Shown in pieces: positions 1-14,216 of a stretch of DNA of 16,910 nt. Source of the stretch: Klenkia sp. (GTDB lineage Bacteria > Actinomycetota > Actinomycetes > Mycobacteriales > Geodermatophilaceae). Under the pieces are notes generated by a model that was not told the origin of the DNA, ran no database searches, and saw only the letters and a program-made list of their open reading frames with translations. Every line of letters begins with the position of its first letter. The first letter of the stretch is position 1. The position numbers and the translations under genes were made by a program. The stretch covers positions 1-16,910 of the forward strand of contig JAOPVM010000360.1 in assembly GCA_025966215.1 (NCBI GenBank). The letters run 5' to 3'.

Positions 1-919
1 CGAACACGGTCTCCAGTGGCGCCGGACGAGTGAGGATCTGCTGGTCCACGGCGGTGCGCACGAGGTCGTGGAGGACCGCCCGGTTGGGCTTGATCCCGTA
101 GGGGAGCGGGTCGGTGCCGGTCCGGTCCAGGACGGCGCGGTACACGCGGTCGTCGCGCGTCTCGCGGGTCGGGGTGCCTGCCCGCAGCTCCTCCAACCAG
201 CGCCGCTTGGCCTCGCTGAAGACCTCGAAGACCTCGACGGCCAGTCCGGGTCGTGCCGCCAGGACGTCGTCACGGACGACGAGGAGGTGGTTGATGGGCC
301 AGCTTCCCCGTTGGTCGAGAGCGCGTAGGCCGGCGTCGAGCGCGTCCGGGATGAGCGGGACGATGTCGGGGGTGCGGAGGTCGGCACCGATCACCGCCGC
401 CAGCTCACCGGCCCGCAGCTGGTCCTCCAGCGTCGTCCCGGACGGGAGGGGCTCGACGTTGCCGGGGGGCGTGTACTGCTCGACGTGCTCGTCCCCGGAC
501 AGCACCCAGGTGATCCACCGCGGGTCGATGCCGTGCTCCCGGAGCAGCACGTCGCGCGCCCAGACCCCGGTCGTCACCGTGTAGCCACGGTGGACCCCCA
601 CGCGTCGGCCCACGAGGTCGGCCGGCTCCCGGACCCCGGAGCCGGCCAGCACCTGGATCGCGCCGTGGTGGAACGCGCGGACCAGGAACACCGGGATGCC
701 GGTGATGGGGACCCCGTGCTCCTTGGCGACCAGGTAGGTGGTCAGCGCCATCTCGCTGATGTCGAACTCCTGGGTCCGCACCATGCGCCGGAAGGCCTGC
801 GGCAGGACGGGGACCTCCTCGAAGGCGAACTCGAAGGTCGCCGGCCGGACCGATCCGTCCTTGACCGCGGCAGTGGGTCCGGACGTGCGGGTGACGGTGG
901 TGAAGACGGGTGCGGTCAC
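1..919 (-). CDS. 4,5-dihydroxyphthalate decarboxylase-like protein, 3' end cut by window edge
   Basis: Reading the minus strand from a GTG at 919 gives one open frame of 306 codons to the window edge. GAGAGG lies 7 bases upstream of the GTG and supports this start. The protein is a clear paralogue of the one at 3861-4850. Both share the pattern (D/E)xxEMxLxxYxxxxxxG (here about residues 52-67), then a DLVGRxVG segment, then TxGVWxRxxLxxxHG. The C-terminal part, with DPLPYGIKPNR, matches the usual end of the Pht5 family, so probably only a few residues are missing. Family members decarboxylate 4,5-dihydroxyphthalate to protocatechuate; the fold is related to NMT1/THI5 and periplasmic binding proteins. 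There is no signal peptide, which argues for a cytoplasmic enzyme rather than a transport lipoprotein. The gene diverges from the catabolic operon at 1037 and shares its operator at 971-984. The exact substrate is inferred. Confidence 0.8.
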   Translation of the reverse strand, partial: MTAPVFTTVTRTSGPTAAVKDGSVRPATFEFAFEEVPVLPQAFRRMVRTQEFDISEMALTTYLVAKEHGVPITGIPVFLVRAFHHGAIQVLAGSGVREPADLVGRRVGVHRGYTVTTGVWARDVLLREHGIDPRWITWVLSGDEHVEQYTPPGNVEPLPSGTTLEDQLRAGELAAVIGADLRTPDIVPLIPDALDAGLRALDQRGSWPINHLLVVRDDVLAARPGLAVEVFEVFSEAKRRWLEELRAGTPTRETRDDRVYRAVLDRTGTDPLPYGIKPNRAVLHDLVRTAVDQQILTRPAPLETVF

Positions 920-1036
920 GACTGCGCCTCTCAACGGCCGGGGCGGGGGTACCGCGGACCGGATGTCAACATGGTCAGACCAATGGACCATAGGTTAGCG
1001 TGAGCCGGACCACCATCTCAGGAGGCACAGACAGCC
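920..1036. promoter_or_regulatory. Divergent promoter region between the two catabolic transcription units
   Basis: This 117-base gap separates the divergent starts at 919 (minus) and 1037 (plus). It is the AT-richest spot nearby, around 963-996. On the plus strand a weak pair of TCAACA (966-971) and TAGGTT (991-996) could be a promoter, with a long 19-base spacer. On the minus strand a TTGACA is visible at 965-970, but I see no convincing -10 box at the right distance. A palindromic operator (971-984) lies between them and could control both directions. The AGGAGG at 1020-1025 serves the plus-strand gene. Confidence 0.55.
971..984 (-). promoter_or_regulatory. Operator site A, perfect TGGTC-A-GACCA palindrome
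   Basis: Bases 972-982 read TGGTCAGACCA, a perfect 5-base inverted repeat around one central base. The minus strand of 971-984 reads ATTGGTCTGACCAT. The same 14-base form recurs at 6576-6589 and 8385-8398, and more weakly at 5106-5119, each time in front of a gene of this locus. The TGGTC-n-GACCA form is that of FadR, and FCD-subfamily GntR repressors use similar sites. No GntR gene lies in the window, so the regulator is unseen. Confidence 0.6.
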
Positions 1037-2152
1037 ATGGCAGAACGTGTGCGGGCGGCGGTACGAACCGGCCCGGGGGTCACCCAGCTGCAGGACTTCC
1101 CGATGCCCGAGATCGGCGAGGACGAAGCGCTGCTGCAGGTGGAGGTCGCCGGCATCTGCGGCACCGACGTGAAGAGGTACAGCTCCCCGCCGTTCCCCGA
1201 CCCGGTGATCATGGGCCACGAGAACGTGGGGACCGTGGCCCGGGCTGGGCAGCAGTGGCTGCGCAGCCACGGCCTGGCCGTCGGGGACCGGGTCTTCGTC
1301 GAGCACTACGTGGGGTGCATGCACTGCGCGTGGTGTCGGGCGGGGGAGTACCGGCACTGCGAGCTCACCGACTGGCGGACCAACCCGGAGGCCCGCCGCT
1401 ACGGCTACACCTCCGCAGACAAGCCCGGCCGACTGTGGGGCGGGTTCGCCGAGTTCATGTACCTGCCGTGGAACGCGATCACCCACAAGGTCCCCGATGG
1501 TGTGTCGGCCGAGCTGGCGGGGCTGGTCACGCCTTTGTCCAACGGCATCGAGTGGGCACTGAACGCCGGGGGGGTCGGTTACGACTCCACGGTGCTCGTG
1601 CAGGGGCCGGGCCAGCAGGGACTGTCCCAGGTCATCGCCTCGAAGCAGGCGGGAGCCTCGTTGATCATCGTCACCGGCACCACCCGGGACGCCGCCCGGC
1701 TGCAGCTGGCCCAGGAGCTGGGCGCCGACCACGTCGTCGACGTGCTCACCGAGGACCCGCGTGAGCGGATCCTCGAGTTGACCGCAGGGGTGGGGGTGGA
1801 CGTCGTCCTGGACTGCACGGCGGGGGCGGGTACGGCCCCGGTCCTGCTGGGTGTCGATGCGCTCAAGCGGCGCGAGGGCGTCATGGTGACCCAGGGCGAG
1901 CTGGCGGCGTTCCCCGACTTCCCGCTGAAGAAGCTGACCGAGAAGTGCATCGCGCTGCGCAGCGCTCGCGGTCACGGGTACCGCGCGGTGGAGCTGGCCC
2001 TGGCACAGGTGGCGTCGGGACGTTTCCCGCTGGAGCGGCTGGCCACCCACACCTTCACCCTCGACGAGGTCGACCACGCGATCCGAGCCCTGGCCGGAGA
2101 GACCGGTGAGGATGCGCTGCACGTCTCGCTGCTGCCGGGAGCGGCGGCGTGA
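1037..2152 (+). CDS. Zinc-dependent alcohol dehydrogenase-like MDR oxidoreductase
   Basis: A 371-residue medium-chain dehydrogenase/reductase, NAD(P)-dependent and cytosolic. The catalytic zinc site is intact: Cys41 in GICGTD and the His61-Glu62 pair in MGHEN. The structural zinc lobe has all four cysteines at C94, C97, C100 and C108. The nucleotide-binding fold carries a GPGQQG loop in place of GxGxxG. The ATG at 1037 has AGGAGG 11 bases upstream (1020-1025). It is the first gene of a four-gene operon, and its TGA overlaps the next start by 4 bases, so it probably oxidises or reduces an intermediate of that pathway. The protocatechuate 4,5-cleavage dehydrogenase LigC belongs to a different family, so this cannot be named LigC. 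The substrate is unknown: an aldehyde, hemiacetal or diol of a carboxylated aromatic would fit the setting. Confidence 0.85.
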
Positions 2153-2841
2153 GGGGCGTCGTCGTCCAGGGTCACCGCCGTGCCGACCCCGACGTCGTGG
2201 CGGGCCTGGCCGGCTGCGGGGTGTCGACCGTGCACGAGGCGCAGGGCCGCACCCATCTGCTGGATCCAGCACTGCGACCGGTCTTCCCGGGAGCCCGCAT
2301 CGCGGGCACCGCGGTGACCGTCAGCGTGCCACCGGCGGACAACTGGATGATCCACGTCGCCGTGGAGCAGTGCGGGGACGGGGACGTGCTCGTCGTGGCT
2401 CCCACGTCGCCCTCGCAGGCCGGCTACGTCGGCGACCTGCTGGCCACGTCCCTGGCTGCCCGCGGGGTCCGCGGTCTGGTGATCGACGCCGGGGTGCGTG
2501 ATGTCGCGGAACTGACCCGGATGGGTTTCCCGGCCTGGTCTCGCGGGGTGTCGGCGTTCGGCACGGTGAAGGAGACGCTGGGCACCGTGAACGTCGGGAT
2601 GGTGTGCGCGGGCCAGTGGGTGGAGGCCGGTGACGTCATCGTCGCCGATGACGACGGCGTCGTCGTCGTTCCCCGCCTGACCGCCTCCGACGTCCTCGCC
2701 GCTGCACGCAGCCGGGAGGAACGGGAGGCCGCGGCTCGTGACCGGTACGCCGCTGGGGCGCTCGGACTGGACGTCAACAGCATGCGCGACCGGCTGGCCG
2801 AGGCAGGCCTGCGGTACGTCGACGCGGAGGGTGACCGGTGA
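2149..2841 (+). CDS. ligK: RraA-like aldolase, probable 4-carboxy-4-hydroxy-2-oxoadipate (CHA) aldolase / oxaloacetate decarboxylase
   Basis: A 230-residue member of the RraA/DlpA superfamily, close to the usual length of LigK/ProA/GalC aldolases. These class II (metal-dependent) aldolases split 4-carboxy-4-hydroxy-2-oxoadipate into pyruvate and oxaloacetate and often also decarboxylate oxaloacetate. The family signatures are present: GDLLATSL from residue 95 and GVRD at 115-118, where Arg117 and Asp118 match the substrate- and metal-binding pair of Lig[10 protein letters not shown] follows near residue 166. The GTG start overlaps the previous stop (GTGA), and its own stop overlaps the next start in the same way, so all three genes are translationally coupled. 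The adjacent LigJ-like gene strengthens the assignment, since LigJ makes the LigK substrate. RraA-fold proteins without aldolase activity exist, so the symbol is by homology and context only. Confidence 0.75.
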
Positions 2842-3857
2842 TCATCGACTGCCACGGCCACTACACGACCGAGCCCCCGGCCCTGCACGCCTACCGCCGC
2901 GCCCAGCTCACCGCCCTGGAGGACAGGTCGGCCACCGAGCCCGACCCGCCGGTCATCAGCGACGAGGAGCTCCGGGCCAGCGTGGAGGACCACCAGCTGC
3001 GGGTGCTGCGGGCACGCGGCGGGGACCTGATGCTGCTGTCCCCCCGCGCTTCGGGGATGGGTCACCACGTCACCGACCCTGGAACGGCCAGCCGCTGGGC
3101 GCAGACGAGCAACGACCTCATCGCCCGGTTGACCCGGCTCTACCCCGATCACTTCGCAGGGGTGTGCCAGCTGCCCCAGACCCCTGGGGGCTCGCTGGAG
3201 GCCGCGGTCACGGAGCTACGACGGTGCGTGGAGACCCTGGGGTTCGTGGGCGTCAACCTGAACCCGGATCCCTCGGGTGGGTTCTGGACGTCACCAGCGC
3301 TGACCGACGACCACTGGTTCCCGCTGTACGAGGCGATGACCGACCTCGACGTGCCGGCCATGGTGCACGTGTCGGCATCCTGCAATCCGGTGTTCCACGC
3401 ATTGGGTGCGCACTACCTCAACGCCGACACCTCTGCCTTCATGCAGTTCCTGGAGGGGGACCTGTTCACCCGCTTCCCCACGCTGCGGTTCGTCATCCCG
3501 CACGGAGGCGGTGCGGTGCCCTACCACTGGGGCCGCTATCGGGGATTGGCGGAACGGATGGGATGGGCGGAGCCCTCCACCCTGTGGGACAACGTCTTCT
3601 TCGACACCTGCGTCTACCACCAGCCGGGGATCGACCTGCTGACCCACGTGATCCCCACCGGCAACGTCCTCTTCGCCTCCGAGATGCTCGGAGCCGTGCG
3701 GGGCAGCGACCCGCAGACCGGCGTCGAGTGGGATGACACCAAGTCCTACGTGGACCGGACCGGCCTGACCGAGCAGGAGCTGAGCCAGGTGTACGAGGGG
3801 AACGCGCGCCGCGTGTACCCCCGACTCGATGCGCAGCTGACTGCTGCGGGGAGGTGA
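2838..3857 (+). CDS. ligJ: Amidohydrolase-family 4-oxalomesaconate hydratase (LigJ-like)
   Basis: A 339-residue amidohydrolase-2 protein, the same length class as Sphingobium LigJ. LigJ hydrates 4-oxalomesaconate to 4-carboxy-4-hydroxy-2-oxoadipate in protocatechuate 4,5-cleavage. The N-terminal metal motif DCHGHY places His6 and His8. Further likely ligands are His177 (MVHVS) and His222 (PHGGG). Glu282 (FASEM) stands where most amidohydrolases have Asp. That His/His/His/His/Glu set and spacing agree closely with LigJ as I recall it (H6, H8, H178, H223, E284). Other shared stretches are [17 protein letters not shown] and the terminal ENARRVY-type end (here EGNARRVYP). The GTG start overlaps the aldolase stop by 4 bases. 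The main alternative is a related decarboxylase of the ACMSD/gamma-resorcylate group, but the Glu and the LigK-like neighbour favour the hydratase. Confidence 0.8.
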
Positions 3858-3860
3858 CCC

Positions 3861-4850
3861 GTGTCCAAGCTCCGCCTCACGTTCGCCTGCGGTGACTACG
3901 ACCGGACCCGCGCGCTGGCCGAAGGCACCGTGCAGGCAGACGGCATCGACGTCAACTACCTGCGCCTGCCGGTCGAGGAGACCTTCTTCCGGATGATGCG
4001 GCACCGGGAGTTCGAGGTGGCCGAGATGTCCCTGTCCTCGTACGTGAAGTCACTGGCCACTGGCGGCGCACCGTTCATCGCCCTGCCCGTCTACACGTCC
4101 CGGCAGTTCCGGCACGCCGGGGTGTTCGTGCACGCCGACAGCGGGATCAGCCGGCCCGAGGACCTGGTGGGGCGGGTGGTGGGCACCCCGGAGTGGCAGC
4201 TGACCGCTGGGGTCTGGATCCGGGGCATCCTGGCCGACCGGCACGGGGTCGCGGTGGACTCGGTGCGCTACCGCACCGGGGGCCAGGAGACACCAGGTCG
4301 GATCGAGAAGGCGGTCGTCGACCTGGGCGCCGCGGTCGACATCGAGCCGATCGGACCGGGGGAGACGCTGTCGGCCCTGCTCGCCGAGGGACGGATCGAC
4401 GCGCTGCAGAGCCCGCGAGTCCCGTCCTCCTTCGTCCCCGGCGGCCCGGTGCGTCGACTGTTCGGCGATGCGGTCGCGGCCGAGAAGCAGTACTTCGCCG
4501 ACACCGGCATCTTCCCGATCATGCACGTGGTCGTGGTGCGTCGGGACGTCTACGAGGACAACCGCTGGGTGGCCCAGTCGCTGACCAAGGCGCTCACCGT
4601 GGCCAAGCACCAGGCGATGACCGAGTTGTACGACTCCTCGGCTCTGCGGTTCATGTCGCCGTGGCTCATACCGGGGGTGGAGGAAGCCCGGAGCTTGCTG
4701 GGCGAGGACTTCTGGTCCTACGGCCTGGCTGGGAACGAGACGGCGCTGTCCACGTTCCTGCGGTACCACCACGAGCAGGGGCTGTCCCCGCGCCGACTCG
4801 CTCCGGAGGAGCTCTTCGCCCCGGAGGCCCTCGAGTCCTTCGTCATCTGA
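3861..4850 (+). CDS. 4,5-dihydroxyphthalate decarboxylase-like protein (Pht5 family)
   Basis: A 329-residue protein of the Pht5/NMT1-THI5-like fold. Its start, LRLTFACGDYDRTRAL, is typical of annotated 4,5-dihydroxyphthalate decarboxylases, followed by EMSLSSY near residue 56 and LVGRVVGTPEW near residue 101. The GTG start has GGGGAGG 6 bases upstream and lies 3 bases after the hydratase stop, so it is the fourth gene of the operon. No signal peptide or lipobox is present, which argues against a secreted binding protein although the fold is shared with them. The expected role is removal of one carboxylate from a dihydroxylated aromatic diacid in the cytoplasm. It is a paralogue of the gene at 1-919. 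The two are divergent enough to act on different substrates or steps. Family assignment is firm, substrate inferred. Confidence 0.82.
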   Translation: MSKLRLTFACGDYDRTRALAEGTVQADGIDVNYLRLPVEETFFRMMRHREFEVAEMSLSSYVKSLATGGAPFIALPVYTSRQFRHAGVFVHADSGISRPEDLVGRVVGTPEWQLTAGVWIRGILADRHGVAVDSVRYRTGGQETPGRIEKAVVDLGAAVDIEPIGPGETLSALLAEGRIDALQSPRVPSSFVPGGPVRRLFGDAVAAEKQYFADTGIFPIMHVVVVRRDVYEDNRWVAQSLTKALTVAKHQAMTELYDSSALRFMSPWLIPGVEEARSLLGEDFWSYGLAGNETALSTFLRYHHEQGLSPRRLAPEELFAPEALESFVI

Positions 4851-4883
4851 GGGAGCGCGGGTGGGGCATCGCCTCGCAGGGGT

Positions 4884-5093
4884 TCAGCGACGGCCGCCGA
4901 CCATCGAGGTGAGGACCGCTCGTCGCGAGCGCGGTCCTCGGGCGTCCTCGTAGGCACGAGCGGCCGACAGTGCGCCGGCGATCACGGACGACCACGTGTG
5001 CGCCGTGCGTCGCAGCCGGGCGACGGGCAGGACAACGGCAGGGAGGGCAGGCGCTCTCGATGCACGTCGGCTGGGGGTGGTGATGCTGCTCAT
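4884..5093 (-). CDS. Small basic hypothetical protein, 69 residues
   Basis: The minus strand opens with ATG at 5093 and runs 69 codons. AGGAGG sits 3 bases before the ATG, a perfect sequence at short spacing. The protein is Arg/Ala/Ser-rich and basic, starting MSSITTPSRRASRAP, with a central stretch TWSSVIAGALSAARAYEDAR that could form one amphipathic helix. I recognise no family. The main reason to call it is the regulatory set-up: a copy of the locus operator lies 13 bases upstream (5106-5119), and no other gene start is nearby that it could serve. Against it, a terminator-like hairpin of the opposing operon overlaps its 3' third. It may be a remnant rather than a working gene. Confidence 0.4.
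   Translation of the reverse strand: MSSITTPSRRASRAPALPAVVLPVARLRRTAHTWSSVIAGALSAARAYEDARGPRSRRAVLTSMVGGRR
4911..4939 (+). terminator. Hairpin downstream of the catabolic operon
   Basis: GAGGACCGCTCG (4911-4922) can pair with CGAGCGCGGTCCTC (4926-4939), with a two-base bulge and a TCG loop. It begins 60 bases after the operon's last stop codon and lacks a T-run, as is common in GC-rich actinomycetes. It falls inside the small opposing ORF at 4884-5093, so part of the symmetry could be coding coincidence. Confidence 0.4.
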
Positions 5094-5105
5094 GAGCCTC
5101 CTATG

Positions 5106-5119
5106 ATGGTCTGTCCTTT
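5106..5119 (-). promoter_or_regulatory. Operator site B, degenerate copy
   Basis: The minus strand reads AAAGGACAGACCAT. The right half (ACAGACCAT) matches the copy at 8385-8398 closely, whereas the left half has drifted (AAAGGAC for ATTGGTC). It lies directly upstream of the small ORF starting at 5093 and about 130 bases downstream of the reductase stop. It is weaker than sites A, C and D. Confidence 0.4.
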
Positions 5120-5138
5120 TACGGTAAGACCGCCACGG

Positions 5139-5152
5139 CGGACATGTGTCCG
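5139..5152. promoter_or_regulatory. 14-base inverted repeat CGGACA-TG-TGTCCG
   Basis: Perfect 6-base arms around a 2-base centre. The loop is too short for a terminator, so a protein-binding site is more likely. It lies 46 bases upstream of the small ORF start, near the degenerate operator. I found no second copy. Confidence 0.3.
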
Positions 5153-5228
5153 TTTTCGGCCACCCCGTGCGTGAGAGGCAGCACATCCAGCCCAGGTCGT
5201 CGACCGGCGCACACCGACCGCGCGGCCT

Positions 5229-5245
5229 CGACCCCTTCCGGGTCG
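5229..5245 (-). terminator. Hairpin just after the reductase stop codon
   Basis: On the minus strand CGACCC, a five-base loop GGAAG, and GGGTCG form a short perfect stem only 3 bases after the reductase stop (5249-5251). There is no T-run. Likely end of the reductase transcript. Confidence 0.5.
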
Positions 5246-5248
5246 CGG

Positions 5249-6493
5249 TCAGGCGGTGGCAGCGGCGAGGACGTCCTTGAGTCGCACCGAGCTGTCGGCG
5301 ACAGCGGACGGCGGGAGCGGGACCCCGAGGGTCAGCGCCTTCCGGACCACCAGGTAGTCGGCGGGGGTGTTCACCGCGTCCACGGCGAGCAGTTCTCCTC
5401 GGCGGTAGTAGAGGACGGAGAACCTCTCCGCTCCAGGGTCACCCCGCAGGACCGTGGTGTCGAAACCGTCGGACAGGCCGGCGATCTGCAGGCGCAGGTC
5501 GCCCTGGTTGGACCAGAACCACGGCACGGATCGTTCCTCCCCCCGCTGCCCGAGCAGCGCCCCCGCCGCGGCCGTGGCCTGCGCGACAGCGCTCTGGACC
5601 GACTCCAGCCGGACGCGGCCCACGCCCGTCATGGGGTGGGGTTGCACGGTGCAGTCCCCCGCGGCGACCACCGCGGCGGCACTCGTACGACCCTGACCGT
5701 CGACGACGATCCCGCCGTCGCACTCCAGACCCAACTGCTCGGCGAGTTCCGTGCGGGGCACCACGCCGATGCCGACGAGCACGAGGTCGGCGAGCAGCCT
5801 CTCGCCGCCCTCGAGCTCCACCGCGGTCACCTGGCCGGCCTCCCCGATCAGCTGGATCACCGCGGTGCCCGTGAGCACCTGGGTTCCCCGCCGTTCATGG
5901 GCGCCGCGGTAGAAGTCCGACACGACGGGGGCGACGGCGCGACCGATGAGCCGCCCGGCCATCTCGACCACTGTCACCGCGGCGCCCTGGGCCCGCGCGG
6001 CGGCGGCCGCCTCCAGACCGATGAACCCACCGCCGATCACCACGACCCGGGACGCGCGGCTCAAGCCGGCGCGAACCCGTGTCGCATCGTCGAGGTCGCG
6101 CAGGTACAGGACCCCGTCGAGGTCGTGGCCCGGGATCGTGAGCCGCCGGGGACGAGCTCCGACGGTGAGGGCCAGGCGGTCGAACGTCATCGTCGCGCCC
6201 GAGGCGGTGCGCGCCCGACCCGAGCCACCGGTGGGCAGGGTCGCCTCGACCACCCGTTCCCCCATGACCAGCCGGATCCCGGCGTCGTCGTAGAACTGAG
6301 GGGTGCGGAAGGCGAGCGAGTCGGGCGGGACGGCAGCGGACAGGAACTCCTTGGACAGCGGGGGGCGCTGGTAAGGCGCGTGCGCCTCTGCCCCCACGAG
6401 GGTGATGGGGTCCTGGTCCCCCATCTCCCGGAGGGAGATCGCGACCTGGAGGCCGGCCTGGCTGGCGCCCACGATCAGGGTGCCCGCGCTCAC
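5249..6493 (-). CDS. FAD-dependent ferredoxin/rubredoxin reductase-type oxidoreductase
   Basis: A 414-residue flavoprotein of the pyridine nucleotide-disulfide family, of the type that passes electrons from NAD(P)H to a ferredoxin feeding a Rieske oxygenase or P450. The FAD loop is near the start (GASQAG at residues 9-14, with Ser for the usual Gly). PYQRPPLSK at 40-48 is characteristic of BphA4-like reductases. The NAD(P) loop GGGFIG is at 154-159, and the second FAD motif AAGDC comes later, followed by the WFWSNQ segment and C-terminal domain. I chose the GTG at 6493 because GGAG lies 7 bases upstream and the Rossmann strand begins at once. An ATG at 6577 is an in-frame alternative, but it abuts the operator at 6576-6589. 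No ferredoxin or oxygenase gene is visible in the window, so its partner must lie elsewhere. Confidence 0.85.
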   Translation of the reverse strand: MSAGTLIVGASQAGLQVAISLREMGDQDPITLVGAEAHAPYQRPPLSKEFLSAAVPPDSLAFRTPQFYDDAGIRLVMGERVVEATLPTGGSGRARTASGATMTFDRLALTVGARPRRLTIPGHDLDGVLYLRDLDDATRVRAGLSRASRVVVIGGGFIGLEAAAAARAQGAAVTVVEMAGRLIGRAVAPVVSDFYRGAHERRGTQVLTGTAVIQLIGEAGQVTAVELEGGERLLADLVLVGIGVVPRTELAEQLGLECDGGIVVDGQGRTSAAAVVAAGDCTVQPHPMTGVGRVRLESVQSAVAQATAAAGALLGQRGEERSVPWFWSNQGDLRLQIAGLSDGFDTTVLRGDPGAERFSVLYYRRGELLAVDAVNTPADYLVVRKALTLGVPLPPSAVADSSVRLKDVLAAATA

Positions 6494-6575
6494 CGTCGAG
6501 CTCCACGGTGCAGGCGCGAGGGGCGGGTGCGGGGTCGTGAAGGGAGCACGTGGTCCTCCGAGCAAGGACGAATCC

Positions 6576-6589
6576 ATTGGTCCTACCAT
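6576..6589 (+). promoter_or_regulatory. Operator site C
   Basis: ATTGGTCCTACCAT, with 6578-6588 forming TGGTC-C-TACCA, one mismatch from a perfect palindrome. It lies between the divergent reductase (start 6493) and the broken class II aldolase (start 6594 or 6597), so it can control both. It begins right at the alternative reductase ATG (6577). Confidence 0.55.
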
Positions 6590-6593
6590 CATG

Positions 6594-7190
6594 CCATGCG
6601 GCCCGGCGCGGAGGCGACGACTGCGGTGCGCCCTGAGTTCGTGCGGGGGCCGGCCCGACGACGTCGTCCTGGTGTCGGGGGACGGTGAGGTTCTCGCGGG
6701 CCACGGTCGGCGGCATGCGGAGCACCCGATCCACAGCGAGGTGGTGCAGGCACGTCCGGACGTCGGCAGCGTGGTGCACGCCCGCTCGCCGGCGGCGGTG
6801 GCCTCCGACTCGCTGACGGTGCCCCTCGTGCCGGTCTCCCACGAAGCGACGGTGTTCACGCCCCCCGACGTGCCCCGGTTCACCGACACCAGCGACCTCA
6901 TCCTCACCGCAGACCTGGGCCGGCGGGTGGCCGCGGTGCTGGCGGACCGGAAGGCGTGCCTCCTGGTCGACCACGGGTGGTCGTGGCGGCTGAGGACGTC
7001 CCGACCGCCGTCGGCACCGCGTACCTGCTCCATCGCGCGTGCCAGATGCAGCTGACCGCGATGGCCGCAGGGGGGCCGGCGACCTGGACGCCCCCGGAAG
7101 AGGCGCTGTCCCAGCGAGGGCACTGCTGCCCCCCGGACATGCTGCGGGGGGCCTGGGACCACCTCGTTCGCCGGTTGGACGGCCGCACCG
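6594..7190 (+). pseudogene. Decayed class II aldolase/adducin-family gene (decarboxylase or aldolase)
   Basis: The frame at 6594 gives a recognisable class II aldolase core from DDVVLVSGDGEVL (about 6658) through HPIHSEVVQARPDVGSVVH to ADRKACLLVDHG (about 6976). The homology then continues one frame over as VVVAAEDVPTAVGTAYLLHRACQMQL to AWDHLVRRLD (about 7180). GACCACGGGTGG lacks one G relative to the expected codons, so a single-base deletion near 6973-6977 explains the shift. The N-terminal 50-60 residues usual in the family, including the GHVSVR-type segment, are missing. A second shift may lie near 6650, since the other frame reads VRPEFVRGPAR before the core. The metal motif HxH has become HAR (6777-6785). 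No family-like stop precedes the opposing transporter gene. Relatives include fuculose aldolases and 3,4-dihydroxyphthalate 2-decarboxylase; which one this was is not decidable here. Confidence 0.75.
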
Positions 7191-7196
7191 GACGGT

Positions 7197-8351
7197 CTAT
7201 CGGGTCGACCTGGGGAACTGCCGACGCAACGCCACCGCCGGCAGCGCCATCGCGGCGCCGACCACGGCCACGGCCGAGCTCAGCGGCAGGGCGACGAGGA
7301 GGCCGGCGACCGTCAACGGCGCGAAGAGGAGGGCGGCGGCGCGGAACGTGCCGCTGACCGCGATGGCTTCCCCGCGCTCCTCGGGATGCACCGCTTCGGC
7401 CGCCGTGGCCTGGCCGAGCACCTGCACGGCTCCGGCGGCGACGCCGCTGACGGCCAGCGCCACGGCCACCCACCCCACGTGGTCGGCCAGGGCCGGCGTG
7501 AGTCCGGTGGCCACTCCGGTGAGGAGGATGCCGACTGCCAGGCTCCGCCCGGACCAGCGCGCCGACACCCAGCCGGACAGGGCCGTGCCGACCAGCTGCG
7601 CCCCGTTGGCGACCGACACGAGGAGCCCGATCCTGGAGGACGACTGGCCGGCCGCGATCAGGGCGACGGGCACGTAGGACGTCAGCAGTGCCCGCCACGC
7701 GCCTGCCGTCATCCCCGCCCAGCATCCGACGCTGACCCCCGGCCGACGCCACAGTCGTCCGGGCGGGCGATCGGCAGGGGGGCTGAAGGGCGGAAGACGG
7801 TCCAGCAGGAACGCAGGCACGACGCCGACGACGGCGACGCCGGCCGAGACGACGAGCGCCGCCGAAGGGGAGTCCTCCGACACCACGCCGGCGATCAGCG
7901 GCCCCACGAGCAAGCCCACGGCGGCCACCAGGTTGACGCGGGCGAGCGCCCCGGCAGCACGCCTGGAGCCCCGGACGACGTGGGTCTGACTGCCGGTCCA
8001 GAAGCACGCTCGGGCCACGCCCTGCAGCAGCTGGGCGATCACGAAGGGCGCAGGCTCCGTGGACAGGGCGACCAGGCCGCCACTGAGTGCCAGGAACACA
8101 CCCGCGGCGGCGACGAGGGTCCAGTCGGCCCACCGGCGCATCGCCCAGCCCAGGACGAGTCGAACAGCCATCTGCGACACGGCCGAGGCCGCTGTCAGGG
8201 CGCCGACGCCGACGGCGGAGTAGCCACTCTGCACAGCGAGGAGAGGGAGCGCGACGCTGGCGATCCCCAACGACAGGGAGAAGATGCCCGCGCCGCTCGC
8301 GGAGGCGACCGTGTCGCGGGACGGAGGGCCGACGTGCCGTCGCCAGTTCAT
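7197..8351 (-). CDS. Major facilitator superfamily transporter
   Basis: A 384-residue polytopic membrane protein. It has about twelve hydrophobic segments, beginning after a short cytoplasmic MNWRRHVGPPSRD leader with FSLSLGIASVALPLLAV. Two repeats of six helices are separated by a hydrophilic loop near DRLPPFSPPADRPPGRLWRR. Arg/Trp motifs such as GWAMRRWAD after helix 2 match the MFS signature position. I chose the ATG at 8349-8351 because upstream codons encode non-homologous, charged sequence; the Shine-Dalgarno is weak. A copy of the locus operator sits 33 bases upstream (8385-8398). Its role is probably uptake or efflux of the aromatic acid or a product; the substrate is not readable from sequence. 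It converges on the broken class II aldolase, with almost no gap. Confidence 0.85.
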   Translation of the reverse strand: MNWRRHVGPPSRDTVASASGAGIFSLSLGIASVALPLLAVQSGYSAVGVGALTAASAVSQMAVRLVLGWAMRRWADWTLVAAAGVFLALSGGLVALSTEPAPFVIAQLLQGVARACFWTGSQTHVVRGSRRAAGALARVNLVAAVGLLVGPLIAGVVSEDSPSAALVVSAGVAVVGVVPAFLLDRLPPFSPPADRPPGRLWRRPGVSVGCWAGMTAGAWRALLTSYVPVALIAAGQSSSRIGLLVSVANGAQLVGTALSGWVSARWSGRSLAVGILLTGVATGLTPALADHVGWVAVALAVSGVAAGAVQVLGQATAAEAVHPEERGEAIAVSGTFRAAALLFAPLTVAGLLVALPLSSAVAVVGAAMALPAVALRRQFPRSTR

Positions 8352-8558
8352 CGCTGCGTCACCGCCCCGGTCTCGGTCGTGCCGATTGGCCAGACCATAA
8401 GACCACGAGCGACGTCGTCTGCCCAGGTGCCAGGTGCCGAGAACCGCCCAGCGCCCGATCCCGGCAGGAGCGCTCACCGTCGCGGCGCATCGACGACGCG
8501 GGCTCGATGCCGGAGCCGAGGGAGCAGCCGACGACCCGCCCCGGGTGGGCGTCCTCGA
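8352..8558. other. Intergenic border between catabolic locus and purine operon
   Basis: This 207-base stretch contains the transporter promoter and operator at its left end. The rest, about 8400-8558, shows no gene I can support. A minus-strand frame across it reads LWLIEDAHPGRVVGCSLG, which faintly recalls part of an acetyltransferase-like fold. It has no start, motif or coding context, so it may be a remnant. A short tandem repeat AGGTGCC x2 lies near 8424-8437. Confidence 0.4.
8385..8398 (+). promoter_or_regulatory. Operator site D
   Basis: ATTGGCCAGACCAT, with 8387-8397 forming TGGCC-A-GACCA, one mismatch from perfect symmetry. It lies 33 bases upstream of the transporter ATG. On the minus strand TATGGT at its edge could be the -10 box, so a bound repressor would block the promoter. 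Confidence 0.55.
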
Positions 8559-9119
8559 TCAGCCAGAGGTGGAGCCCGGCGACGTGCCTCCAGCCAGGGC
8601 CTCCGGGGAGGCCTGGCGCGCCAGACCGCCCCGCCGGTCGACGACCGGCGGCTGCACCGACCAGGGGAAGTCGATCCAGGCGTCGGTGCGCTTCCAGACG
8701 TAGTCGCACGTCACGACCGAGCGGGGCTTCTCGTAGACCACCGCGGACCGCACCTCGGCGACGTAGCCGGCGCAGAAGTCGCGGACCAGCTCCAGGGTCC
8801 TGCCGGTGTCGGCGACGTCGTCGGCGATGAGCACGATGGCCCCGGTCAGGTCGACCCGGTCCAGGTTCGGCGGCAGCATGACCGGCAGCTCGAGCCGCTC
8901 GTCCACGCCGGTGTAGAACTCCACGTTCATCACGAAGAGGTTCTTCACGTCCAGGGCGTAGCCCAGCGCCCCGCCGAGGAACAGCCCGCCTCGGGCGATC
9001 GCCAGGATGAGGTCGGGTTCGTAGCCGTCGTCGGCGACCTGCTGGGCGAGCGCACGCCCGGCCGTCCCGAACATCTCGTAGGTCAGGGTCTCCCGCTCGG
9101 GCGCCGTCACGTCGGGCAT
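8559..9119 (-). CDS. Phosphoribosyltransferase (purine salvage type) with extended C-terminus
   Basis: A 186-residue type I phosphoribosyltransferase. The PRPP-binding loop IADDVADTGRT is at residues 98-108 and the pyrophosphate-loop region IARGG at 41-45. WIDFPWS near 148-154 is typical of xanthine/guanine-type enzymes. It should join a purine base to PRPP in the cytoplasm; the exact base is not determined. It starts 1 base after the urate oxidase stop (TGAGATG), so the two are co-translated. This places salvage of xanthine or hypoxanthine beside urate destruction. Similar proteins usually end soon after the PPVV at 157-160. Here 26 further Gly/Ser/Ala-rich residues follow, encoded by DNA with three strong palindromes, which suggests that the original stop was lost at the border with the catabolic locus. 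Confidence 0.82.
   Translation of the reverse strand: MPDVTAPERETLTYEMFGTAGRALAQQVADDGYEPDLILAIARGGLFLGGALGYALDVKNLFVMNVEFYTGVDERLELPVMLPPNLDRVDLTGAIVLIADDVADTGRTLELVRDFCAGYVAEVRSAVVYEKPRSVVTCDYVWKRTDAWIDFPWSVQPPVVDRRGGLARQASPEALAGGTSPGSTSG
8593..8617 (-). repeat. Terminator-like hairpin inside the phosphoribosyltransferase tail
   Basis: GCCAGG-g-CCTCC pairs with GGAGGCCTGGC: 11 pairs with one bulged base. The neighbouring 12-base palindrome CTGGCGCGCCAG occupies 8613-8624. It sits in the atypical C-terminal extension of the coding frame, about 30-60 bases upstream of the present stop, and looks like a former transcription terminator. Confidence 0.5.
8631..8651. repeat. 21-base perfect palindrome CCGCCGGTCG-A-CGACCGGCGG
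   Basis: Ten-base arms flank one base. It spans the codons at the point where the phosphoribosyltransferase diverges from its usual end (Pro-Pro-Val-Val). It could act as a hairpin terminator or be a recombination scar; the sequence alone does not decide. Confidence 0.55.
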
Positions 9120-9120
9120 C

Positions 9121-10011
9121 TCAGCAGAAGCCCGGGGTGCCCTGCCAGGCGACCTCGGCCGGGGCCACGTCGTCGCGGAGCACCTGGCCCTCGATGAGGC
9201 CGTAGGGACGGTCGTCGGCGTGGTAGACCACGTCGGGGTTGTCCAGGCCGAAGGCCGACAGGTCCTGCAGGAAGTGGTGCTTGTTGGGCATCGACATCCG
9301 CACCTCGGCGACCTCGGGCACGGCCTCCAGCACGGCGGTCCCCATCGCGAACAGGGTCTGCTGCAGGGCGAGGGAGTGGGTGGACGCGAAGGCCTCCAGC
9401 AGCGTCGTCCGCACCGTGTCGTAGACGCCGTTCCAGTCCAGGTCGGTGCCCACGTAGCGCCAGCGGGCGGTCACCGCGGTGGCCAGGATCCGATCCCGGG
9501 TCTCGGCCAGGGTCGTGTACGCATCGCGCGGGAAGCCCCAGAACTCCGAGCCGGTGGACTTCAGGACGACGAGGTCGGTGAGCCCGGCGACCACGTGCCG
9601 GCCCTCGCCGTCGGCGGTGACGACGGCGGTGCGCACCTCGCCGCCGGCCTTGCGGAACGCGTGGTCGTGCGGGGCCCCGCCGATGGCGATCCGGTCCCAG
9701 CCGTAGGACTCCACGGCGACCCGGGCGCCGCTGACCCAGTCGTAGGAGCCGGCGAAGTGACCGGCCAGCCGCAGCCCGAACGCCTCGGGGGAGGCGATCC
9801 CGTCCCGGGCGAAGGCGAACACGGTGTTCTTCTGTGCGTCGGTGGTCAGCACGTGCGCGTTGTCGCCGGTCAGGTGCGCGGCGGCGAAGTCACCGCGCAG
9901 CGCCGAGCTGACGTTGAGGTCCACCAGGGTGTGCCGGGGGGTGGAGCGGTCGACCGCGACCACCCGCACCTCGGCCTTCCCGTACTGGTTGGGTCCGAGC
10001 ACGATCGCCAT
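9121..10011 (-). CDS. Urate oxidase (uricase)
   Basis: A 296-residue cofactor-free uricase oxidising urate to 5-hydroxyisourate plus H2O2. The catalytic set is visible: Lys12 (QYGKAEVRV), Thr57-Asp58 (VLTTDAQKNT), the stacking Phe in KSTGSEFWGF, the Arg of DRILAT and Asn/His of MPNKHHF. The length matches the family. The ATG at 10011 has GGAGAGG 8 bases upstream. No peroxisomal tail is present, as expected for a bacterium. It lies downstream of the genes for the next two pathway steps (HIU hydrolase and OHCU decarboxylase), with a DUF1348 gene between, and is coupled to the phosphoribosyltransferase. A near-palindrome with a CACGTG core (10045-10058) lies just upstream of its start. Confidence 0.95.
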   Translation of the reverse strand: MAIVLGPNQYGKAEVRVVAVDRSTPRHTLVDLNVSSALRGDFAAAHLTGDNAHVLTTDAQKNTVFAFARDGIASPEAFGLRLAGHFAGSYDWVSGARVAVESYGWDRIAIGGAPHDHAFRKAGGEVRTAVVTADGEGRHVVAGLTDLVVLKSTGSEFWGFPRDAYTTLAETRDRILATAVTARWRYVGTDLDWNGVYDTVRTTLLEAFASTHSLALQQTLFAMGTAVLEAVPEVAEVRMSMPNKHHFLQDLSAFGLDNPDVVYHADDRPYGLIEGQVLRDDVAPAEVAWQGTPGFC

Positions 10012-10044
10012 GCGCGCAGCCTCTCCGATGGGTGTGTCCGCGGT

Positions 10045-10058
10045 GTTGCACGTGGAAC
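10045..10058. promoter_or_regulatory. Near-palindrome GTTGCACGTGGAAC upstream of urate oxidase
   Basis: Six of seven base pairs match around a CACGTG core. It lies in the 52-base gap between the DUF1348 stop and the urate oxidase start, the largest gap within the operon. It could be an internal regulatory site. No regulator gene is adjacent. Confidence 0.3.
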
Positions 10059-10063
10059 GTCGG

Positions 10064-10525
10064 TCAGTGGAGTGGGATGTCCCGGCCTCGCTCGGCCTCG
10101 GGACGGGGGCCGGATGTGCGCCGGTCGGCCTCGGTGATCGCCACGTCGTCGATGCTCGCCTCGCGCCGGCGCATGAGACCCAGCTCGTCGAACTCCCACA
10201 GCTCGTTGCCGTAGCTGCGCCAGCACTGCCCGTCGGCGTCGCGCCACTCGTACTGGAACCGCACGGCGATCCGGTCGTCGGTGAACGACCAGAGGCTCTT
10301 GCGCAGCGCGTAGTCGAGCTCCTTCGCCCACTTGTCGGTGAGGAAGGCGACCACCTCGGCCCGTCCGGTCAGGAACTGGTCGCGGTTGCGCCAGACGGTG
10401 TCCTCGCTGTACGCCAGGCTCACCCGGTGCGGGTCGCGGCTGTTCCACGCGTCCTCGGCGGCCTGCACCTTGGCAGCAGCACTCTCCCGGTCGAAGGGCG
10501 GGAACGGCGGGCGGGGTTCGCTCAC
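10064..10525 (-). CDS. DUF1348 / NTF2-like protein in the urate operon
   Basis: A 153-residue protein of the DUF1348 (nuclear transport factor 2-like, SnoaL-type cone fold) family. Typical sequence features are [31 protein letters not shown] and the C-terminal [18 protein letters not shown]. The GTG start at 10525 has GAGAGGA 6 bases upstream. It lies 11 bases after the HIU hydrolase stop and 52 bases before urate oxidase on the same strand, so it is almost certainly co-transcribed with them. The family has no established reaction that I can name. Its place suggests a helper role in urate breakdown, for instance handling an unstable intermediate, but this is inference. No signal peptide or membrane segment is visible. 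Confidence 0.8.
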
Positions 10526-10536
10526 GAGTGGTCCTC

Positions 10537-10851
10537 TCAGCTTCCGCGGTACGTGCTGAACGCGAACGGCGCCAGCAGCAGTGGCACGTGGTGGTGCGCG
10601 GTCGGGTCGAGGACGGCGAACTCCAGCGTCACCGAGGGGTAGAAGGTCTCCCGGCCCTGGTCGGCGAACCACTCCCCGGTGCCGAAGACGATCCGGTGCG
10701 CCCCCGCGGTGCCCTCCTCGAGCAGCCGGCAGCGGCCATCGGCATCGGTCACCGACGAGGCGAGCAGCTGCGGACCCCGCAACAGCTGCACCGTCATCCC
10801 CGCCGCGGGCCGGCCGAGCACCGAGTCGAGCACGTGCGTGGAGATGCTCAC
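10537..10851 (-). CDS. 5-hydroxyisourate hydrolase (transthyretin-like)
   Basis: A 104-residue HIU hydrolase, which opens 5-hydroxyisourate (the product of urate oxidase) to OHCU. The N-terminal [17 protein letters not shown] carries the conserved His6. [19 protein letters not shown] at the end contains the His-rich segment and the diagnostic C-terminal tetrapeptide YRGS. The GTG start overlaps the OHCU decarboxylase stop by 4 bases (GTGA), which marks translational coupling. A much longer open frame extends upstream on this strand across other genes, but homology begins only here. Expected as a cytoplasmic homotetramer. Confidence 0.93.
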
Positions 10852-11345
10852 GCCCTCACCAGCCCGCGCACCCGGAGCTCGGTGATCTGGGCCAGCTGCT
10901 CGAGCACCTCGGGTCGCTCCTCGTCGGGGGTGTGGGCCAGGCGGCGCTGGAGCTCGGCGAGCATCTCCTCCGGGGTGCGGCCGGTGGCCCGGATGAGGAA
11001 CACGTGGTCGAAGCGTGCCTCGTAGTCCCGATTGCCCTGGGTCAGGGCGTCGCGCACGTCGTCGGCCGCGGTGGACATCGACGCCTGCTCGCGCCGGGAC
11101 GACGACGCCTCCGCCGAGTCCCCGGAGACCCGGTCCCCGATCCGCGGGTGCGCGGCGAGTGCCTGGACGACCTCGGCCCACGGCAGCGCCCGGGACACCT
11201 CGCCGGCCCGGTCGACCAGGGCGTCCACCGAGGAGTACGGCCGGCCCGCGGCCACGGTCGGGGCGAAGGAGTCCGCGGCGTTGCACGCGCGCAGCGCCTG
11301 CGTCACCTGGTCGACGTCGGCTGCGGAGAAGCTGGACAGGTCCAC
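10848..11345 (-). CDS. 2-oxo-4-hydroxy-4-carboxy-5-ureidoimidazoline (OHCU) decarboxylase
   Basis: A 165-residue OHCU decarboxylase giving S-allantoin, the third step after urate oxidase and HIU hydrolase. The catalytic His66 lies in AHPRIGD (65-71). SRREQ (83-87) supplies Glu86 and Gln87, matching the known His67/Glu87 layout of animal homologues. [14 protein letters not shown] follows. The GTG at 11345 is chosen because homologues begin with MDLxxF-like sequence here; the Shine-Dalgarno is weak. It is the first gene of the urate operon and diverges from malate synthase, with only 43 bases between starts. Cysteine in [15 protein letters not shown] is absent, as in most bacterial members. Confidence 0.92.
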
Positions 11346-11388
11346 GGCTGCGAGGATGCCAGGACCCAACCGGATCGAAGGAGCACGC
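11346..11388. promoter_or_regulatory. Compact 43-base divergent gap, urate operon / malate synthase
   Basis: It holds the malate synthase Shine-Dalgarno (AAGGAG, 11378-11383) and little else. Two full promoters cannot fit without reaching into coding sequence on at least one side. I see no clear -35/-10 pair and no strong palindrome. The signals may lie inside the first codons of either gene, or one start may be misplaced. Confidence 0.4.
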
Positions 11389-12960
11389 GTGGTCGACGTC
11401 CAGGTGATCGGTCCCGAGGTCGAGCGGTCGGCGGAGGTGCTCACCCCCGAGGCCCTGCAGTTCGTCGGAGGACTGCAGCACCTGTTCGGTGCCAGTCGCG
11501 ACGAGCTGCTCGCCACCCGCGCCCTCCACCGGCAGGCCATCGCCGGCGGGCAGCCGCTGGACTTCCGGGTGGAGACCGCCGACGTCCGCGCCGGTGACTG
11601 GCAGGTCCCGCCGCCCCCGCCCGGTCTCGTCCGGCGCCGGGTCGAGATCACCGGGCCCACCGAGCCGAAGATGGCGATCAACGCGCTGAACTGCGGTGCC
11701 GACGTGTGGCTGGCCGACCTCGAGGACGCCAACAACCCGCACTGGCGCAACGTCGTCACCGGGCAGGTCGTGCTGAAGGACGCCGTCCGCGGCTCGCTGG
11801 AGTTCACCAGCCCCGAGGGCACGCAGTACGCCGTCCGCCCGGACGCCGTGCTGCCCACGATCGTGCCCCGCCCGCGCGGCTGGCACCTCGACGAGCGACA
11901 CCTGCTGGTCGACGGCGACCCGGTGGTGGCCGCGTTCGTCGACGCCGGTCTGTACCTGTTCCACAACGCGGAGGAGCAGCTGGAACGCGGCAGCGGGCCG
12001 TACTTCTACCTGCCGAAGATGGAGTCCCACCTCGAGGCGCGGCTGTGGGCCGACGTGTTCGTGCACTGCGAGCGCGAGCTGGGGCTCCCGCGCGGCTCGA
12101 TCCGCGCCACGATGCTCATCGAGACCATCCCGGCCGCGTTCGAGATGGAGGAGATGCTCTACGAGTTGCGCGAGCACGCCACCGGGCTGAACGCCGGGCG
12201 CTGGGACTACCTGTTCAGCGTGGTCAAGGTCTTCCGGGACGCCGGTGCCGACTTCGTGCTGCCCGACCGCTCCGCCGTCACCATGACCGCGCCGATGATG
12301 CGGGCCTACACCGAGCAGCTCGTGGCCACCTGCCACCGCCGCGGCGCCATGGCGATCGGCGGCATGGCCGCGGCGATCCCCAGCCGACGCGACGCCGAGG
12401 CCAACGAGAAGGCACTCGCCAAGGTCCGCGAGGACAAGACCCGAGAGGCCGGTGACGGTTTCGACGGCTCCTGGGTCGCCCACCCCGACCTGGTCGGCCT
12501 CTGCCGCGAGGTGTTCGAGGGCGTGCTCGGTACCGCCGACAACCAGCTCACCCGCCAGCGGGACGACGTGCACGTGACCGCGGCCCAGCTGCTGGACGTC
12601 GCCGGCGTGCCCGGGGAGCGCACCGAGGCGGGGCTGCGGGCCAACGTCGAGGTCGGCATCCGCTACCTCGCGGCCTGGCTGACCGGCAACGGCGCGGTCG
12701 GCATCCACGGCCTGATGGAGGACGCCGCGACCGCCGAGATCTCCCGCTCCCAGGTCTGGCAGTGGGTGCGCTCCGGCGTCGTGCTGGACACCGGGGAGAC
12801 GGTCACCGCGGAGCTGGTGCACCGGGTGATCCAGGAGGAGGTCGCCGGGATCGGTGAGCTCGACCGGCTGGACGACGCCCGCCGGTTGTTCGAGCAGGTC
12901 GCGCTGGCCGACGAGTTCCCCGACTTCCTGACCCTGCCCGCCTACGCCCTCGTCGATTGA
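11389..12960 (+). CDS. aceB: Malate synthase A
   Basis: A 523-residue malate synthase condensing glyoxylate with acetyl-CoA to malate, close to the usual length of the A isoform. Recognisable blocks are LADLEDANNPHWRN near residue 105, GPYFYLPKMESHLEARLW, the signature TMLIETIPAAFEMEEMLYELREH, and FDGSWVAHP near residue 360. The GTG at 11389 has AAGGAG 5 bases upstream; an upstream in-frame extension overlaps the opposing OHCU decarboxylase gene and is not homologous. Divergence from the urate operon makes sense because allantoin breakdown yields glyoxylate. No isocitrate lyase is in the window, so the ureide route is the likelier glyoxylate source here. Its TGA overlaps the next ATG by one base. 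Confidence 0.93.
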   Translation: MVDVQVIGPEVERSAEVLTPEALQFVGGLQHLFGASRDELLATRALHRQAIAGGQPLDFRVETADVRAGDWQVPPPPPGLVRRRVEITGPTEPKMAINALNCGADVWLADLEDANNPHWRNVVTGQVVLKDAVRGSLEFTSPEGTQYAVRPDAVLPTIVPRPRGWHLDERHLLVDGDPVVAAFVDAGLYLFHNAEEQLERGSGPYFYLPKMESHLEARLWADVFVHCERELGLPRGSIRATMLIETIPAAFEMEEMLYELREHATGLNAGRWDYLFSVVKVFRDAGADFVLPDRSAVTMTAPMMRAYTEQLVATCHRRGAMAIGGMAAAIPSRRDAEANEKALAKVREDKTREAGDGFDGSWVAHPDLVGLCREVFEGVLGTADNQLTRQRDDVHVTAAQLLDVAGVPGERTEAGLRANVEVGIRYLAAWLTGNGAVGIHGLMEDAATAEISRSQVWQWVRSGVVLDTGETVTAELVHRVIQEEVAGIGELDRLDDARRLFEQVALADEFPDFLTLPAYALVD

Positions 12961-14159
12961 TGGACGAGGCAGTCCTGGTCGAGCTGGACCGCCGGCTCGG
13001 CCCGGTCGACGACGCCCGGGCGGCGGCGTACCCGGGGGAGCGGTCCACCCGGCAGCCGGTGCACACCTGCTACGTCCCGGCCGACGCCGTCGTCCCCGGC
13101 CTGGTGCAGCACTGGGGGAGGACGGCGCTGGCCGCGCTCGACGAGCACGGGCTGCCTGACCTGGGGATCCCGGGGGAGCTCGTCGAGCAGGTGCTGCCGA
13201 GGGTGCGGGAGAAGCTGGCGCGCGAGCCGGTCGAGGACCTGCGGGTGGACAGCGAGGACGGCTACCGCGGCCCACCCGACCGGGAGGACCACGACGTGCG
13301 GACGGCGGCCGCGACGCTGGCCGCCGAGGCGACCCTGCCGCCGTTCTGGGGCACCCGGGCGAAGTCGCTGGAGGGCCCGACCCGCCGCCGGGGCGTCCGC
13401 TCGCTCGACCTGTTCCTCGGCGGGCTGGCCGGGCGGGACCGCGCGATCGTCACGCTGCCCAAGGTCACCGCCGTCGAGCAGGTGGCCGCGTTCCTGCCGG
13501 TGCTCGACGCCCTGGAGCAGGCGCACGGCCTCGCGCTGGACCTCGAGCTGCAGGTCGAGACCCCGCAGGCGGTGCTCGGCCCGGACGGCGTCGCGACGTT
13601 GGCCGCGATGCTGCACGCCGGCGGTGGCCGGGTGGCCGGGCTGCACTACGGCACCTACGACTACTCGGCCTCGCTGGGCATCGCCGCCGCGCACCAGGCC
13701 GGCGACCACCCCGCGGCCGACCACGCCAAGGCCACGATGCAGGTCGCGGTCGCCGGCACCGGGGCGCGCGCGGTGGACGGCTCGACCAACGTGCTGCCCG
13801 TCGGTGACCGGGACGCGGTGCACCACGGCTGGCAGCTGCACGCCGGGCTGGTCCGGCGCGCCCTGCAGCGCGGCTTCTACCAGGGCTGGGACCTGCACCC
13901 GGCCCAGCTCGTCACGCGGTACGTGGCCACGTACGCGTTCTTCCGGGCCGCGCTGCCCGCTGCCGGCGCCCGGCTGTCGGCCTACGTGAGCCGGGTCGAC
14001 GGCGGGGTGCTCGACGAGCCGGCGACCGCCCGGGCGCTGGCCACGGTGGTGCTGCGTGGGCTGGACTGCGGTGCGTTCGACGTGGCCGAGGCCGACGCCG
14101 CGACCGGGTTGGACCGGCCCGTGCTGGACCGGCTGGCCGGGAGGGCGCAACCGGGTTGA
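12960..14159 (+). CDS. DUF6986 family, CitE/HpcH-like aldolase/lyase fold
   Basis: A 399-residue protein from the ATG at 12960, which overlaps the malate synthase stop by one base (TTGATGG); a TTG at 12957 is in frame but less likely. It belongs to the PEP-mutase/HpcH-HpaI TIM-barrel group. Recognisable pieces are LRVDSEDGYRG, VTLPKV, LELQVETPQAVLG with the Glu-Thr-Pro seen in CitE-like enzymes, LHYGTYDYSASLGI and QGWDLHPAQL. The family has no firmly assigned reaction that I can name. Tight coupling to malate synthase suggests chemistry on glyoxylate, malyl-CoA or a related 2-oxo/hydroxy acid. Acidic and Arg residues for Mg2+ and carboxylate binding appear intact, so it is probably an active enzyme and not a degenerate copy. 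Confidence 0.82.
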   Translation: MDEAVLVELDRRLGPVDDARAAAYPGERSTRQPVHTCYVPADAVVPGLVQHWGRTALAALDEHGLPDLGIPGELVEQVLPRVREKLAREPVEDLRVDSEDGYRGPPDREDHDVRTAAATLAAEATLPPFWGTRAKSLEGPTRRRGVRSLDLFLGGLAGRDRAIVTLPKVTAVEQVAAFLPVLDALEQAHGLALDLELQVETPQAVLGPDGVATLAAMLHAGGGRVAGLHYGTYDYSASLGIAAAHQAGDHPAADHAKATMQVAVAGTGARAVDGSTNVLPVGDRDAVHHGWQLHAGLVRRALQRGFYQGWDLHPAQLVTRYVATYAFFRAALPAAGARLSAYVSRVDGGVLDEPATARALATVVLRGLDCGAFDVAEADAATGLDRPVLDRLAGRAQPG

Positions 14160-14216
14160 GCACCGTCGACACGCCGGATGTGCACGCTCACACCTGCGCC
14201 CCGCGGTGAAGCCGCA

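Follow-up and report, generated by a model that had tools for sequence, protein, structure and literature searches.

The question raised by this locus is whether a short near-palindrome that recurs between the genes of an aromatic-acid catabolic cluster is the operator of a local regulon, and if so, which protein reads it. The cluster, which contains the genes of LigJ (4-oxalomesaconate hydratase) and LigK (4-carboxy-4-hydroxy-2-oxoadipate aldolase), lies on contig JAOPVM010000360.1 of Klenkia sp. (assembly GCA_025966215.1), analysed here over its 16,910 nucleotides (the window). The first-pass annotation of this DNA, made from the letters alone, had proposed such a regulon, governed by a regulator encoded outside the window. 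The follow-up described here gives good support to a real, conserved and dedicated local regulon for which a likely regulator has been identified, a gene switch of a known and ordinary kind. As judged from sequence comparison, the sites are very probably the operators of one local repressor, a FadR-subfamily GntR/FCD protein encoded at C92:273-1046, on another contig of the same assembly. A motif read by eye thereby becomes a regulon that can be tested and for which a regulator gene is named. It belongs to a little-studied actinobacterial pathway in which a LigXa-like Rieske oxygenase is coupled to the LigJ/LigK lower pathway.

Sites confined to one gene cluster

The four 14-mers listed by the first-pass annotation were found exactly at the positions given, all of them intergenic (operators 1 to 4, Table 1). 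A symmetric 17-mer matrix was built from 119 sites of relatives, with the Klenkia genome itself left out. Scanned with this matrix, the window shows operators 3, 1, 2 and 4 as its top four positions, followed by the fifth site, operator 2b, at 5119-5135. After these five sites the next-best position anywhere in the window scores 3.3, and nothing comparable occurs in 8560-16910, where the earlier reading had likewise seen no copies. None of the five overlaps a mapped gene, and intergenic sequence amounts to 1212 bases, 7.2% of the window. First-order Markov shuffles of the window never reached any of the four top operator scores (0/100). Scores of at least 15 are found at six positions in the window and contigs C92 and C423, versus 0 in each of 40 column-permuted matrices; the positions outside the window are C92 2133-2149 (24.0) and C423 5602-5618 (17.8). 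Operator 2 has three mismatches to ATGGTCNNACCAAT. Its treatment as a chance match was rejected, as it came from a 14-mer matrix symmetrised off-centre, and the correctly centred 17-mer scores the site 19.2.

The flanked motif is concentrated in the cluster rather than spread at equal density over random genome positions. With at most one mismatch, ATGGTCNNACCAAT occurs in four places of the 2.92-megabase (Mb) Klenkia assembly, namely window 971, 6576 and 8385 and C92:2135. The same gene cluster holds 4/4 of its places in genome G089 and 4/6 in the one-contig genome G022, so that 12 of 14 places in the three genomes are within the cluster, and the reversed controls give 0 in all three. Exact WTGGTNNNACCAW is found in 3, 3, 2 and 3 places of G000, G022, G089 and G025, 11/11 of them in the cluster, with 0, 1, 1 and 1 places for the controls. 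This confinement supports the local regulon first proposed.

Related clusters, located by way of LigJ, show that the sites are conserved. At the promoter between genes 919 and 1037, 12 copies align gap-free over the site, and TGGTCAGACCAATAGACC is nearly invariant while the flanks diverge. The pattern over operator 1 in these ungapped copies is TGGTCAGACCAAT(A/G)GACC, and the last part of the window copy reads ATGGACC. A site also precedes the reductase gene in all nine same-family copies having that gene, the window counted, and in the Streptosporangiales (L021-L025) sites recur before the ferredoxin gene, gntR and other cluster genes. As a negative control, six LigJ loci without a close regulator orthologue (L141-L146; best 34%, L144) contained no site with at most two mismatches and none scoring at least 18. 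Among 80 LigJ loci from many phyla, a site of at least 18 was present in 6/6 with a regulator of at least 50% identity.

Bacterial -10 boxes can follow the consensus TANNNT. In 11 of the 12 operator 1 copies, a TANNNT box starts 24 base pairs (bp) from the start of TGGT, the exception being the decayed copy L147. If this is the -10 box, operator 1 therefore covers the -35 position and the spacer of the LigJ/LigK operon, and repression is therefore likely. L147 (G090:C60) is itself a second version of the cluster: its genes are split among several frames, but gntR is open and the 919/1037-type operator can be recognised.

The candidate regulator and alternative readings

The Klenkia assembly is 73% complete in 475 contigs and contains five FCD matches, on C92, C66, C229, C111 and C431. 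The regulator, expected outside the window, was found on C92 (4,753 bases) as a FadR-type GntR/FCD gene, orthologous to the GntR that adjoins the cluster in relatives. The C431 match, at the end of its contig, was rejected as the regulator, having no tie to the cluster, unlike the C92 gene. The C92 protein matches PF00392 (GntR, N-terminal winged helix; 73.7 bits, cut-off 27) and PF07729 (FCD, C-terminal; 84.3 bits, cut-off 24.3), and it stays below the cut-offs of the named NCBIfam families NanR (119.4/260), LldR (98.2/311) and PdhR (93.2/330). Its AlphaFold2 model is helical from 101 to 253, with a mean predicted local distance difference test (pLDDT) of 74.6 and a predicted template-modelling score (pTM) of 0.57; domain placement is uncertain. 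A Foldseek search with the model gave 2di3 as the best match (E 3.6e-10, template-modelling score about 0.45), then NanR, VanR, DhdR and FadR. With moderate confidence, the model suggests the all-helical C-terminal domain of the FadR/LldR fold. The putative metal-site histidines H174, H219 and H241 are invariant in 33 sequences, and the Asp/Asn partner position, four residues earlier, is Ser170. About 30 residues of low model confidence precede the winged helix.

Gene order places C92 two contigs away from the window. C423 begins with an RpiB-like gene, followed by hydrolase, PanB-like, Rieske oxygenase and ferredoxin genes, and breaks off within a phosphoglycerate-mutase-like gene, whereas C92 starts with the 3' end of such a gene, followed by gntR. 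Relatives such as L132 have these genes in the order gntR, mutase, ferredoxin, Rieske oxygenase and, further on, RpiB and the counterpart of window gene 2-919. Because the contig-end genes match this order, C92, C423 and C410 are most likely consecutive. The Rieske oxygenase encoded on C423 shares 89% identity with the enzyme of a relative, which has a LigXa_C domain. On the same contig, L194 510-1613 encodes a TctC-type solute receptor and lies between the RpiB-like gene and the hydrolase gene.

We infer the link between the sites and the C92 protein from co-occurrence and the family consensus. Across 112 family genomes, the regulator is present at 74% identity or more in 11, with five more at 54-58%. 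The same 11 have LigJ at 71% or more; a LigJ of any kind at E<=1e-60 is present in 42 genomes. Pattern matches number 3-10 (mean 5.7) in the 11 genomes, versus a mean of 1.04 in the other 101. Better evidence than this co-occurrence is provided by a paralogous group outside the matrix training: in all five loci L204-L208, with a 53-58% identical regulator and another aromatic cluster, a site of 22.7-25.5 stands before the transporter gene adjoining gntR. The winged helices of the orthologue and paralogue groups are nearly identical.

Several observations weigh against a dedicated regulon read by the C92 protein. With at most one mismatch, the bare core TGGTCNGACCA is found 99 times in 2.92 Mb, less often than its reversed control (217), and TGGTCNNACCA with at most two mismatches shows no enrichment in the window (39 observed versus 49 expected). 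The bare core was consequently dropped as a genome-wide marker. The TGGTC-n-GACCA core, put forward as a FadR/FCD signature, holds as to the type of site, but the core by itself does not discriminate; it is the A/T flanks that make the motif specific. The 17-mer matrix was seeded with the palindrome idea and is thus held out by genome, not by hypothesis. Since LigJ and gntR are neighbours, their co-occurrence amounts to co-inheritance of one cluster; moreover, nine of the 101 other family genomes also have at least three pattern matches. Likewise, 10 of the 74 LigJ loci without the regulator in the examined stretch still have a site of at least 18. One of these (L026) is the same cluster and several others belong to marine Gammaproteobacteria, to which the high-GC-background matrix is ill suited. 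The transporter site is partly kept: six of nine same-family loci with a transporter have a match of at least 11.5 no further than about 130 bp from its start, four of them weak (13.0-14.2), and three have none there. Finally, C92 has no site immediately ahead of gntR, and the case for autoregulation depends on the C423 site that precedes the mutase gene.

Some GntR proteins activate, and the regulator could be an activator, or work both ways, at these sites. However, the centre of operator 1 falls about 19-24 bp before the putative -10 box, which suits exclusion of the polymerase and not its recruitment, and activation is considered unlikely. A still smaller probability is given to the sites belonging to another FCD GntR of the genome, with the C92 gene as a bystander. 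The four other FCD matches and the incompleteness of the genome allow for this, and FadR-type operators are alike across the subfamily (PMC4494728). Nevertheless, of the five genes it is the C92 one alone that is orthologous to the GntR found within the cluster of relatives, C92 itself bears a site of score 24.0, and the 53-58% identical paralogues adjoin sites of the same form. Lastly, chance similarity or a dispersed repeat element could be suggested by the abundance of the bare core and its lack of enrichment in the window, but on the sequence evidence this explanation is close to negligible: the flanked motif is confined to the cluster, the top four positions of the window were returned by a matrix of other genomes, and the sites are kept where their flanks diverge.

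Operator architecture and known systems

The operator matrix columns match the FadR-subfamily palindrome TKGT-N3-ACMA with A/T flanks, the subfamily consensus being TKGT/ACMA with a 3-nt gap (PMC4494728). In GntR proteins in general, additional half-sites lie 7-12 nt from the centre (PMC4494728). A scan of 113 distinct sites (226 flanks, offsets 5 to 20, at least four of the five letters of TGGTC) showed a direct TGGTC precisely 8 bp ahead of the core TGGT in 66 of the 226, and in 0-6 at every other offset, counts that are not independent events, as the sites are related by descent. This third half-site is a strong case of the known GntR trend. Besides the two copies in Table 1, it is perfect at the C423 site and retains 3/5 letters at operator 3 and 2/5 at operator 2 and the C92 site. 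An inverted GACCA at offset 6 forms a smaller peak (16/226 flanks) beside it. The peak of the permuted CTGGT (41 at offset 9) was rejected as a separate signal, being the same half-site shifted by one.

In the proposed mechanism, a regulator dimer would bind the palindrome (A)TGGT-N3-ACCA(T), and the direct TGGTC 8 bp outside it may extend the complex through a second dimer or a higher-order contact. At the 919/1037 promoter, protein on the -35 position and spacer of the LigJ/LigK operon would exclude RNA polymerase. Small organic effectors such as carboxylic acids are bound by FadR-subfamily proteins (PMC4494728), and a carboxylated pathway intermediate in the FCD domain would release the repressor. 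Control by the protein would extend to the Rieske oxygenase/ferredoxin operon on C423 and, by way of the mutase-gntR operon, to the gene of the protein itself. It is possible, though doubtful, that the operator is a hybrid, combining a FadR-type inverted repeat with a NanR-like direct repeat at 8 bp, bound by two cooperative dimers and with the number and quality of the half-sites determining a graded order in which genes are released, in a regulon that includes an unknown small-protein family with its own operator in several clusters.

FadR, PdhR, LldR, GlcC and DgoR, all with a 3-nt gap, share with the present system the winged helix plus FCD domain and the A/T-flanked TKGT-N3-ACMA (PMC4494728). 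FadR-subfamily regulons also resemble it in having one site close to the midpoint of a divergent promoter and in extra half-sites 7-12 nt from the centre (PMC4494728). They differ in their target genes, in the strong third half-site seen here, which is direct and lies exactly 8 bp away, and in the putative metal site, where Ser replaces the Asp/Asn partner. Of the published systems compared, the nearest are aromatic-pathway repressors of the GntR type, for example VanR2 of Pseudomonas sp. NGC7, which represses a syringate pathway ending, as here, in oxalomesaconate-type intermediates (PMC12314914), a likeness in regulator type and pathway. That system is proteobacterial, and its lower galBCD operon is under the LysR-type GalR (PMC12314914), whereas here a GntR operator stands on LigJ/LigK.

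Atu1419 (VanR) of Agrobacterium fabrum is likewise an FCD repressor of an aromatic-acid pathway with a similar fold (6za3), and its palindrome overlaps the -10 or sits between -10 and -35, as can be likened to the operators here (PMC7797058). It differs in its palindrome, ATGTATACAT, in being a tetramer and in binding zinc through Asn137 and three His, where the C92 protein has Ser170 (PMC7797058). Escherichia coli NanR binds direct GGTATA repeats as three dimers side by side and has a 32-residue N-terminal extension (PMC8012715). Direct GGT-containing repeats and an extension before the winged helix are thus shared (PMC8012715), but NanR is described without an inverted repeat (PMC8012715), and the C92 protein falls far short of the NanR cut-off. 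A literature search, with most subscription journals outside its coverage, found no published account of the motif or of the C92 GntR.

Operator 2, the small protein and the surrounding genes

The site at 5106-5119 had been placed between or just upstream of gene starts of the catabolic locus. It actually lies between two convergent genes, upstream of neither the reductase nor the LigJ/LigK operon nor any other catabolic gene, about 12 bp before an unannotated open reading frame (ORF) of 69 amino acids (aa). Relatives of this ORF in five other genomes end at nearly the same residue, and in four of the five an operator stands 34-39 bp upstream (G089, 13.5; G010, 20.2; G004, 22.6; G022, 19.7); the G088 relative has no operator close upstream. 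Six aligned copies differ 407, 313 and 502 times at codon positions 1, 2 and 3 (1007 codon comparisons). The ORF has no Pfam family, and a database search with the single sequence gave nothing at E<=0.01; a profile from the six aligned ORFs retrieved 19 database proteins, whose names go no further than hypothetical or uncharacterized. The sharp operator model, with its third half-site at 8 bp, and this regulated small-protein family are additions made by the present analysis.

Table 1. Mapped features of the window (operator positions are those of the 17-mer; first-pass positions in the third column)
Feature	Position	First-pass position	Strand	Remarks
Operator 1	969..985	971-984	.	score 20.1; centre of divergent promoter of genes 2-919 and 1037-2152
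Operator 2	5104..5120	5106-5119	.	score 19.2; precedes 69-aa ORF
Operator 2b	5119..5135		.	score 12.3, 0.08 expected per window; abuts operator 2
Operator 3	6575..6591	6576-6589	.	score 20.2; precedes reductase gene
Operator 4	8384..8400	8385-8398	.	score 16.0; precedes MFS transporter gene
Third half-site TGGTC at operator 1	986..990		-	5/5 letters, 8 bp from core
Third half-site TGGTC at operator 4	8401..8405		-	5/5 letters, 8 bp from core
TANNNT box (TAGCGT), putative -10 of 1037 operon	996..1001		+	24 bp after TGGT start
NMT1-like protein (earlier "decarboxylase")	2..919		-	Pfam NMT1; 3' end cut by contig end
Zinc-type dehydrogenase, first operon gene	1037..2152		+	Pfam ADH_N, ADH_zinc_N
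LigK, 4-carboxy-4-hydroxy-2-oxoadipate aldolase	2149..2841		+	NCBIfam TIGR02798, 316.5 bits, cut-off 304.5
LigJ, 4-oxalomesaconate hydratase	2838..3857		+	Pfam Amidohydro_2; nearest solved chains 2gwg, 6dxq
Second NMT1-like protein	3861..4850		+	Pfam
69-aa ORF, unannotated	4884..5093		-	AGGAGG box; relatives in five other genomes; 19 database proteins
Ferredoxin-reductase-type flavoprotein	5249..6493		-	Pfam Pyr_redox_2, Reductase_C
Class II aldolase remnant	6651..7180		+	two pieces in different frames, N-terminus missing
MFS transporter	7197..8351		-	Pfam MFS_1

In the broken aldolase gene, residues 1-69 of the protein of a relative have no counterpart, and the rest lies in two frames meeting at 6977, a frame change that could be a draft-assembly error. 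The right half of the contig (8559-16804) is a different unit without the motif, with genes for a phosphoribosyltransferase, uricase, DUF1348, HIUase, OHCU decarboxylase, malate synthase, DUF6986, MEDS/ATPase, NmrA-like and MarR proteins.

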